From positions 1,474,501 to 1,538,500 of the forward strand of contig NZ_CP090836.1 in NCBI RefSeq assembly GCF_021491915.1: a stretch of DNA of 64,000 bases, given 5' to 3'. Position numbers and translations under genes: made by a program. The DNA comes from Paracoccus everestensis (lineage in GTDB: Bacteria; Pseudomonadota; Alphaproteobacteria; Rhodobacterales; Rhodobacteraceae). The number at the start of each line of letters is the position of its first letter. Positions within the stretch are counted from its first letter, which is position 1. The notes beneath the pieces were generated by a model. It was not told the origin of the DNA, made no database searches, and worked only from the letters and a program-made list of their open reading frames with translations. Below are positions 3,385 to 10,221 of this stretch, one piece after another.

Positions 3385-8464
<5,080 letters not shown>

Positions 8465-8476
8465 AGCGCGTTGCGT

Positions 8477-9007
8477 CTAATCGGTTTCATATCCGGCGGC
8501 TTTGAAGAAATTGTAGCATTCCTCATCGGTGAAAAGATCGCAGACCTGCCCGACGGCGTGCCAGAGAGCCTCGTAGGTTCGCGCGGCGGCTCTCCGGATC
8601 AGGGCCTTGAGCTTTGCGAAGGCCATCTCGATCGGGTTCAGATCCGGACTGTAGGGAGGCAAGAACAAGAACCACGCGCCAACGGCGCTCATAGTCGCCG
8701 CTGCCTTGGGACTCTTGTGCGATGACAGGTTATCCAGAATGATCACATCGCCGGGTCGCAGTGTCGGGGCCAGTTGGGTTTCGACATAGAGCTCGAACAG
8801 TTCGCGGTTCATGGCACCGTCGATCACCCAGGGCGCATCCAGCCGGTCATGGCGCAGGGCGGCGATGAAGGTCTGGGTGTTCCAGTGGCCGAAGGGCGCA
8901 TGGTCGACAAGGCGCGCGCCTTTTGGAGACCATCCGGTGGTCTTGGCCATGTTCGTCTTCAGCGACGTCTCGTCGATGAAACCAAGGCGCGTCAACGCGC
9001 TGCGCAT
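8477..9007 (-). CDS. IS630-family transposase, catalytic part (OrfB)
   Basis: This frame encodes the DDE catalytic domain: the first Asp in FIDETS, the second in IILDNLSSHKS and the Glu in YSPDLNPIEMAFAKLK. An ATG at 9007 gives 176 residues, but the frame stays open upstream to the A7 run near 9087 without a good start. It is therefore probably made as a fusion with OrfA through a +1 frameshift or transcript slippage. Nothing in the core looks damaged, so the element may be active. Confidence 0.88.
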   Translation of the reverse strand: MRSALTRLGFIDETSLKTNMAKTTGWSPKGARLVDHAPFGHWNTQTFIAALRHDRLDAPWVIDGAMNRELFELYVETQLAPTLRPGDVIILDNLSSHKSPKAAATMSAVGAWFLFLPPYSPDLNPIEMAFAKLKALIRRAAARTYEALWHAVGQVCDLFTDEECYNFFKAAGYETD

Positions 9008-9053
9008 GAACGGTTGGCGTCGTGTGATCCAGATATGGCGTGCCTGCCGGATC

Positions 9054-9434
9054 TCAGGCCGCTTCTGCTCGAGGGCTTGCAGGTCTTTTTTTGTGTGTCA
9101 GCCCGAGACCGCGCAAAAACCGCCAAACCGAGACACGGTGAATGGCGATGCCGTGATGATCCGCAAGTTCGCCGACCAGGTCGTTCAGCGTCAGATCGGG
9201 CTTCGCCTTCATGCGCGCGGTGATCCAGTCCCCCACACCAACCAATTTGCCATGACCACCACCATGGCCTTGGGCACGCGGAGCTAACCCGCCCGTCTCG
9301 CGCTTCAGGATCACCATGTCGTTGACGAACTTCACCGAAACCCGGAACCGCGCAGCGGCTGAACGGTGCGAGTTCCCTTCCTCCACAAATGCCACAACGC
9401 GCTCTCGGAGCGCCATAGGATGCGGTCTGCCCAT
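9054..9434 (-). CDS. IS630-family transposase, DNA-binding part (OrfA)
   Basis: The 126-residue frame has tandem helix-turn-helix segments (RSAAARFRVSVKFV at about 22-35 and the IHRVSVWRFLR helix near 100) that would bind the element ends. The ATG at 9434 follows a GGAGGG site. At the end of the similarity the frame reads CAC AAA AAA AGA; skipping one A in the run of seven As puts ribosomes into the OrfB frame. The 14 or so residues after the run are probably not part of the full transposase. Confidence 0.85.
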   Translation of the reverse strand: MGRPHPMALRERVVAFVEEGNSHRSAAARFRVSVKFVNDMVILKRETGGLAPRAQGHGGGHGKLVGVGDWITARMKAKPDLTLNDLVGELADHHGIAIHRVSVWRFLRGLGLTHKKRPASPRAEAA

Positions 9435-9524
9435 ATCATCCCTCCACCTGTCATGCAGGCAGGGAATCACAGATCAAGCCACAGGGGTATCCTGAATCGG
9501 GAAAGCCGCAATACGCTCTAAAAT

Positions 9525-9539
9525 GTTCTTAAAATGTTC
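9525..9539 (+). promoter_or_regulatory. LexA operator (SOS box), GTTC-N7-GTTC
   Basis: GTTC at 9525-9528 and GTTC at 9536-9539 are separated by exactly seven bases, a perfect match to the alphaproteobacterial LexA box. A further GTTC (9550-9553) and GAAC (9563-9566) follow, as does one GAATC (9545-9549). The box lies 53 bases before the ATG of a 31-residue membrane peptide gene, so that gene should be repressed by LexA and induced by DNA damage. Confidence 0.8.
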
Positions 9540-9592
9540 TTTACGAATCGTTCTGAAAATGAGAACAAATAGGCAACACGAAGGAGTTGCCC

Positions 9593-9688
9593 ATGTCCCG
9601 TGATTTCATATGCGATCTTCTGGGTGTGACCGCCTTGACCGTCACCACTATCATTGTCCTGTGGTTGCCTGCGATCCTGCAGGCCTGA
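9593..9688 (+). CDS. SOS-regulated 31-residue membrane peptide, SidA-like by context
   Basis: This peptide has a short polar N-terminus (MSRDFICD) and one transmembrane segment at about residues 9-29. A strong AAGGAG ribosome site sits 7 bases before the ATG, a perfect LexA box lies upstream, and a Rho-independent terminator follows, so it forms a compact single-gene SOS unit. Caulobacter SidA, a 29-residue LexA-controlled inner-membrane peptide that inhibits division through FtsW/FtsN, is the closest known parallel in size, topology and control. I infer a similar role; I cannot claim sequence homology. An IS630 element now separates it from recG. Confidence 0.72.
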   Translation: MSRDFICDLLGVTALTVTTIIVLWLPAILQA

Positions 9689-9753
9689 TCTCTGCCCCGC
9701 GTTGCCCTGACGGCGCTTGCCTGTGCGCCCGTCGATCCCCAGCACGCGCACCT

Positions 9754-9781
9754 GCCGGTCCTGTCACGGGACCGGCTTTTT
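9754..9781 (+). terminator. Rho-independent terminator
   Basis: The stem GCCGGTCC/GGACCGGC with a 7-base loop is followed by five Ts on the plus strand. It ends the transcript of the small SOS peptide gene and meets the 3' end of the convergent NifU-like gene. The 65 bases between the peptide stop and the stem hold nothing recognisable. Confidence 0.85.
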
Positions 9782-10221
9782 CATAACTGCGTGGCTTGGT
9801 CGATGGCATCCAGCGTGGCATCCCAGGCCAGCAGGATGGATGCATGGCGATTGGGGTAATCCCGCGCAGGCAACAGCGCCTCGAGATCCGCGAATGGCGC
9901 GGCGGGGGGATCCCCCGCATCCGTCAGCATCGTCCGCAAGGCATCGCGAGTGGCGGCAACTTCCGCCCGGCTTCGCCCGACAACTGCCTGCCCCAGGACC
10001 GAGGCCGAGGCTTGGCCAAGCGCGCAGGCCCGCACCTCTTGCCGAAAATCGGCGATTCGGTCGCCATCCATCGCCACATAGGCCGTGACAGACGATCCGC
10101 ATTGCGGCGACCTGCGCATGGCCTTGCCGTCGAAGGCGGGCAGCGCCCCCAGGTGCGGGATGGCGGTCGTCAGCGCCAGGATCCTGCGGGAATAAAGCTG
10201 CATCAGGTCGCTGTCGGCCAT
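9781..10221 (-). CDS. NifU/IscU-like iron-sulfur scaffold homologue
   Basis: This 146-residue protein resembles the small IscU/SufU scaffold fold. Two of the usual three cluster-ligand cysteines are present, Cys41 in SPQCGSS and Cys66 in RACALGQAS. The third position, normally R-x-x-C, reads RHAS with Ser128. From memory RHAS is common in alphaproteobacterial members, so this may be a variant subfamily rather than decay. It stands alone between a terminator and hisI, with no iscS or suf genes nearby. Whether it still builds clusters is uncertain. Confidence 0.78.
   Translation of the reverse strand: MADSDLMQLYSRRILALTTAIPHLGALPAFDGKAMRRSPQCGSSVTAYVAMDGDRIADFRQEVRACALGQASASVLGQAVVGRSRAEVAATRDALRTMLTDAGDPPAAPFADLEALLPARDYPNRHASILLAWDATLDAIDQATQL

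Follow-up and report, generated by a model that had tools for sequence, protein, structure and literature searches.

The best explanation for the conservation that we describe here is that a small unit lying behind recG, made of a LexA box, a promoter, a one-helix membrane peptide and a structured 3' RNA, is a core member of the SOS regulon of Rhodobacteraceae, which DNA damage would induce. Rhodobacteraceae include Paracoccus, Rhodobacter and the marine roseobacters. Comparisons among their genomes strongly support SOS control and the existence of a genuine membrane peptide, and repression of the unit by LexA is, by the same kind of evidence, well supported. The function that we propose by analogy, that of a SidA-type inhibitor of cell division acting on FtsW and perhaps with FtsN, has in our view about an even chance of being right. 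The peptide is unnamed and no Pfam or NCBIfam family fits it. The unit resembles known SOS division inhibitors in kind, and what sets it apart is the combination of a conserved locus and a structured tail. Since the peptide, unnamed and nearly family-wide, is paired with a LexA box and keeps the same locus, the question of a division brake is directly testable in laboratory strains that are easy to handle.

The unit and its LexA box

The unit was recognised in the window, i.e., the whole stretch of 64,000 nucleotides under analysis, and its parts are listed in Table 1. The box, the AAGGAG ribosome site, the 31-codon ORF and the terminator all lie at the positions that an earlier note on this DNA had given, and the single membrane helix of that note corresponds to one hydrophobic stretch (Kyte-Doolittle 19-residue maximum of 2.19). 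Its further claim, that standard gene finders would miss the ORF, holds only in part, as the NCBI annotation has hypothetical proteins for some relatives. Downstream of the box, GAAC begins 23 nt past it, and the region comprising TTTAC and TGAGAACAAA has a probable promoter role, judging from its constant spacing.

Table 1. Features of the unit and of its surroundings in the window
Feature	Position	Strand	Remarks
LexA box GTTC-N7-GTTC, GTTCTTAAAATGTTC	9525..9539	+	kept in relatives
Probable promoter core, TTTAC adjoining the box, then TGAGAACAAA	9540..9569	+	alignment A2, constant spacing
Small leader hairpin GGCAAC/GTTGCC	9572..9591	+	some relatives lack the hairpin
Ribosome site AAGGAG	9581-9586	+	within and beside the leader hairpin loop
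Membrane peptide ORF, single helix, 31 residues, including stop	9593..9688	+	ATG 9593, TGA 9686-9688
Conserved 3' UTR RNA	9689..9753	+	alignment A3, covariation; CUGCCCC leader
3' UTR closing stem	9698-9702 with 9744-9748	+	coordinates verified
3' UTR hairpin, loop GCCUGU	9712-9716 with 9725-9729	+	
Intrinsic terminator	9754..9781	+	stem 9754-9763/9767-9776, then TTTTT 9777-9781
recG	6344..8464	+	Pfam RecG domains; typical neighbour 5' of the unit
IS630-like insertion separating recG and unit in the window strain	8464..9518		DDE_3, terminal inverted repeats
Transposase ORF	8477-9007	-	DDE_3 domain
Transposase ORF	9054-9470	-	HTH_32 match, sub-cut-off only

The box by itself proves nothing, because its counts are near chance: the window contains three GTTC-N7-GTTC patterns where 1.45 are expected (19 of 100 shuffles reach three), and the whole genome has 117 matches against 96 for a reversed-pattern control. 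We thus rejected the box alone as evidence. The lexA gene of the same genome carries a box of the same class directly upstream, so that GTTC-N7-GTTC is the right motif for this organism. In a scan of this genome covering 21 fetched loci (one place was fetched twice) among the 117 box matches, the only genes picked out by eye were lexA and a ParE-like ORF. This ParE/GyrB-like ORF begins directly after GAACAAGAGCAGAAC (locus L192, G000:C1:1671000-1672000) and is a second likely SOS gene in the genome.

Conservation tells more than counts. A GTTC-N7-GTTC pattern in the promoter that is conserved across orthologues, which is the mark of a LexA regulon, was found upstream of the peptide in 29 of 30 loci of the genus, the exception (L011) having ATTC as its first half-site, and in 32 of the 32 best-scoring family loci selected by the peptide, within 260 nt. 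GAAC keeps its distance of 23 nt from the box in 28 of the 30 genus loci and its fixed place in 30 of the 32 family loci, whereas none of 5864 overlapping control windows taken from these 32 loci has the box. The homologous loci reached by the genus profile show the same pattern (perfect box in 26 of 26, a set that omits three of the 29 loci besides that of the window, where the match was inside a long ORF); three of the 32 best-scoring loci are places already among these 26. The earlier note had made its reading depend on the peptide being conserved behind LexA boxes, and the two are indeed conserved together.

An independent scan used the promoter pattern alone, on 84,980 species represented by a single genome each, and returned at least 117 stretches. 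They come from genera that we take to belong to Rhodobacteraceae or Rhodobacterales, and from three metagenome genomes placed in Alphaproteobacteria only (L089, L104 and L135). Among the matches listed, the peptide ORF comes after the promoter in 115 of 117 loci (79 of the first 80, and 36 of the 37 others); one of these peptides (L152) was missed by the D-x-G filter and recognised by hand. In the two exceptions, L091 and L167, the sequence ends 71 and 32 nt past the promoter, and the start of the ORF is seen in L091. Upstream, recG lies on the same strand in 116 of the 117 promoter loci listed, the last one having just 22 nt of upstream sequence, and the distance from the matched end of recG to the box is at most 50 nt in 92 of the 116, at most 121 nt in 110, and 545 nt at the maximum. 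A NifU-like gene is downstream on the opposite strand in 94 of the 117 listed. This linkage to recG across the family had escaped the earlier note, as had the structured 3' RNA and the IS insertion described below. Box and peptide co-occur whichever of them is used for selection, which supports an SOS-controlled unit.

The peptide and its distribution

Of 37 genomes of the genus, 33 have the peptide at E<=0.01 and 36 have it at E<=1. Within the genus, residues D8 and P26 do not vary, and G11, A14, W24, L25 and A27 are nearly invariant. The pooled, uncorrected pN/pS is 0.23 (0.111/0.483) for 13 sequences forming three close groups, drawn from the 20 genus sequences that have 31 codons; over all pairs of the 20 it amounts to 0.279 over 0.558, with synonymous sites near saturation. 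Variability at codon positions 1, 2 and 3 is 0.27, 0.10 and 0.40. By these comparative measures, the 31-codon ORF is a translated gene under purifying selection, and this selection, together with the conserved D, G and LP, suggests that the peptide has a specific partner rather than being a mere hydrophobic plug. In other genera the protein is usually of about 40 residues, with an added N-terminal stretch ahead of the D-x-x-G ... LP helix. In four Paracoccus loci (L030, L031, L032 and L038) the peptide is extended at its N-terminus and has 45 residues; the box there is followed by TTGC instead of TTTAC, and the 3' tail differs.

With a profile built from 71 sequences, the peptide was detected at E<=0.01 in 266 of the 295 genomes of the family, nearly all of which are from different genera. 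There is one match per genome in 258 of them and two in eight, where the second match is a possible paralogue (G106, G147, G148, G165, G247, G275, G307 and G353). Searches of Pfam and NCBIfam gave no family for the peptide of the window, and over the 71 members no family was common to more than two, with a best E of 0.0077. Among the 120 relatives listed of 166 found, those that bear a name are all called hypothetical or uncharacterized protein.

Twenty of the 29 profile-negative family genomes were followed up. We found recG in 16 of them and its 3' end in 14, and at five of these 14 ends a box is retained together with a hydrophobic membrane peptide that has diverged, which means that the profile count of 266 of 295 misses some members. 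Such a case is L300, from a family genome of about 2.1 Mb (G232), where a box and a highly diverged hydrophobic peptide of 38 residues lie behind recG. The other nine ends showed no box in the fetched stretch. Hence, some family genomes seem to be without the unit at recG, from which it would be absent or moved. lexA is present in 16 of the 20 profile-negative genomes versus 20 of 20 chosen positive ones. The lexA-negative genomes with a recG end (G068, G093 and G227) are all among the nine lacking the box, and the five box-bearing genomes all have lexA. We considered the loss of lexA as the cause of the missing peptide and set it aside as not clear-cut, given the 16 profile-negative genomes that have the gene.

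To look beyond the family, we ran the peptide profile on 385 genomes of the class. Strong matches, with E of 1.5e-9 or better, come from five genomes of the family, and 43 others match at E<=0.1, the best of them at 0.006 and inside a frame of 185 codons. None of 24 fetched loci has a box upstream of these weak matches (25 were fetched, the match in L204 being near a contig end and misplaced), and no convincing homologue outside Rhodobacteraceae was found among the 385 genomes. Profile A4 gave no match at E<=0.1 in G392 and G605, two of the 385 genomes, which are probable Caulobacteraceae according to HfsE scores that are high yet below the curated cut-off. In the 28 best-scoring recG loci outside the family, the 350 nt that follow recG contain no LexA box (270 nt for L273, which ends there). 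Among these genomes and loci, neither a convincing homologue nor a box behind recG lies outside the family, so that the parallel with SidA of Caulobacter drawn in the earlier note is one of size, single helix and LexA box and need not mean shared descent.

A structured RNA behind the peptide

The 3' UTR of the genus aligns well in 23 of 30 loci (alignment A3, which omits the seven loci with a different tail). In A3, which comprises the closing stem, the hairpin with the GCCUGU loop and the terminator, 96.9% of the cells are paired and ten of 18 pairs have changed on both sides; none of 500 shuffles was as good on any of five measures. The terminator stem has compensatory changes among relatives. 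Genera other than Paracoccus have a longer tail, and the version of the window and of Paracoccus is shortened. The idea of the tail as one conserved family-wide sequence was rejected, because Paracoccus (A3) and the other genera (A5-A7) needed separate alignments; A5 (MAFFT, 32 tails) was too ragged and served only for viewing motifs.

For the family, a script found the terminator in 71 of 79 loci, which left 69 tails after the removal of two from Paracoccus. They fold with a mean z of -2.65 (below -2 in 48 of the 69), and 62 of them have a closing stem of at least five pairs. Two C-rich motifs recur in the tails: CTGCCTG in 56 of 75 versus 1.8% of control windows, and CTGTCCC in 45 of 75 versus 1.3%, an enrichment of about 40-fold for the two. 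These motifs are mostly unpaired in the folds (0.75 vs 0.40, in 67 of 69 tails), and the same holds when only C residues are compared (0.79 vs 0.43, in 66 of 69). In several family loci the loop of the terminator hairpin repeats the CUGUCCC of the upstream loops (e.g., L078:5294-5463 and L106:3459-3643). In an alignment of 46 tails that was fitted to the closing-stem structure under test, changes on both sides occur in 12 of the 13 pairs of the closing stem; the cells with such changes number 86, versus 20.9 +/- 5.0 in shuffles and at most 22 in slid controls. In an alignment of 11 tails (A6), the shuffles were surpassed on four of five covariation measures, the exception being the number of further pair types, which 230 of 500 shuffles reached.

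A covariance model built from 11 tails (R1) matches 54 of 76 sources at E<=1 and 35 at E<=0.01, including the 11 seeds; the window is unmatched. All 54 matches begin within 120 nt past the last codon of the peptide and on the same strand. Across 100 whole genomes of the family, R1 has a match in 25, one in each, and in 23 of the 25 it lies directly behind the peptide, these 23 being the genomes with peptide coordinates (the others are G142 and G138). An end-to-end duplex test of own versus foreign partner strands was weak, with the own strand in the best 5% for 22 of 64 RNAs. No Rfam family scored above its gathering threshold at the tail in the window, in nine genus loci or in eight family loci; sub-threshold hits on tails were Hrs13 in L037 (23.2 of 52 bits) and Xoo2 in L121 (25.8 of 45 bits). 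Elsewhere in the window, 9806-9933 on the minus strand resembles the Rfam radC RNA (24.4 bits, gathering score 40); it lies within the NifU-like gene and is probably a chance match. The tail probably tunes the life or the translation of the mRNA, or is itself a regulatory RNA.

A proposed division brake and its alternatives

To account for a constrained peptide with one helix that follows a LexA box in nearly the whole family, we favour a brake on cell division of the same kind as SidA. In the mechanism that we propose, LexA bound to the box would block the promoter just behind recG during normal growth. Upon DNA damage, RecA would trigger the self-cleavage of LexA, and transcription would yield a short mRNA for a peptide predicted to cross the inner membrane once, with its N-terminus inside; the peptide has 31 residues in most Paracoccus and some 40 elsewhere. 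The helix would then bind the septal peptidoglycan synthase complex, the putative target being FtsW and perhaps FtsN, and septum synthesis would halt until repair is complete, as with SidA in Caulobacter. PMC4211646 describes SidA as a LexA-controlled inner-membrane peptide of 29 residues that binds FtsW, and PMC12700426 attributes to sidA the filaments formed upon lexA deletion in Caulobacter. Size, one inner-membrane helix and control through GTTC-N7-GTTC are the points of likeness between SidA of C. crescentus and the unit of the window, with its 31 residues, one hydrophobic stretch and predicted LexA control; what differs, in a comparison made with the description of SidA, is that the transcript of Rhodobacteraceae bears a structured 3' RNA.

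Other small membrane inhibitors of division are similar in some respects. YneA of Bacillus, SosA of Staphylococcus and ChiZ of Mycobacterium are damage-induced and thought to meet FtsW; according to PMC13396833, YneA binds TM7 of FtsW, and AlphaFold 3 models, which are not of high confidence, place SidA, ChiZ and SosA there. YneA and ChiZ have a LysM domain (PMC13396833), whereas the peptide described here has nearly nothing outside its helix. DidA, the second inhibitor of Caulobacter, may be compared as a small membrane inhibitor of division after damage, but is SOS-independent according to PMC4211646, whereas our unit has a LexA box. No prior report of the unit, or of an SOS division inhibitor in Rhodobacteraceae, was found in our searches of the open-licence literature. 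Against the proposed brake stands PMC8958291, according to which P. denitrificans Pd1222 elongates under mitomycin C even without recA, so SOS cannot be the sole cause of elongation there and any SOS brake would not be the only one; public RNA-seq data (DRA013013) are named in the same source. If FtsW is the target, the peptide adds another case for septal wall synthesis as a common brake after damage.

A wider reading, which we put forward tentatively, is that of a dual-function SOS transcript, made of an FtsW-directed division-blocking peptide and a structured 3' RNA of a new class, in which repeated CUGCCUG/CUGUCCC loops would regulate other mRNAs or a protein. If true, repair, division and gene control would be coupled across a whole bacterial family; a tail that acts in trans would also give the SOS response of Alphaproteobacteria a new type of output. 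Similar in part is EcpR1 of Sinorhizobium, an alphaproteobacterial RNA that is induced by stress, has a conserved GC-rich loop and adjusts the cell cycle; PMC4414408 describes it as a separate sRNA gene of Rhizobiales downstream of divK-pleD, unlike a LexA unit linked to recG. Taken further, the transcript might be mainly a regulatory RNA of the SOS response, with a tail that pairs with targets or titrates a protein through its repeated C-rich loops and a peptide that merely accompanies it. The covarying stems, the roughly 40-fold enrichment of two motifs that stay mostly unpaired, and the single R1 match per matching genome, behind the peptide in 23 of 25, are in favour of it; yet the ORF itself is under purifying selection, the shortened tail of Paracoccus goes unrecognised by R1, just 25 of 100 family genomes have a match, and the duplex test places only 22 of 64 RNAs in its best 5%, all of which makes this version doubtful.

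TisB and DinQ are SOS-induced membrane peptides of E. coli that come with an antisense RNA (PMC8145889 and PMC3567139). Through its LexA box, our unit would likewise be a membrane peptide of the SOS type, and it fits a toxin of this kind in size and in having a single helix; such a toxin would depolarise the inner membrane and slow growth or favour persistence. Type I toxin loci are generally patchy in distribution. We find this reading unlikely for a nearly family-wide core gene with a fixed locus and constrained residues, and there is little room for an upstream antitoxin like istR, because the coding sequence of recG precedes the box in strains without the IS. The constant presence of recG upstream (116 of 117 listed loci) would also suit a peptide that, while DNA is repaired, holds RecG at the membrane or modulates it there, which we regard as very improbable: the unit carries a box and a terminator of its own, in the window it is intact even though an IS cuts it off from recG, and the linkage may reflect a promoter placed near the end of recG (within 50 nt in 92 of 116 loci). 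The SidA-type brake is thus the reading that we retain for the peptide.

The insertion in the window strain is of an element that we take to be of the IS630 family, whose terminal inverted repeats agree at 20 of 30 positions. It puts the unit apart from recG in this strain. The element was inserted at the TA within the stop codon of recG, and this codon survives as TAG; TA flanks the element on both sides (8462-8463 and 9519-9520); the right-hand TA is 4 nt from the LexA box, which is untouched.
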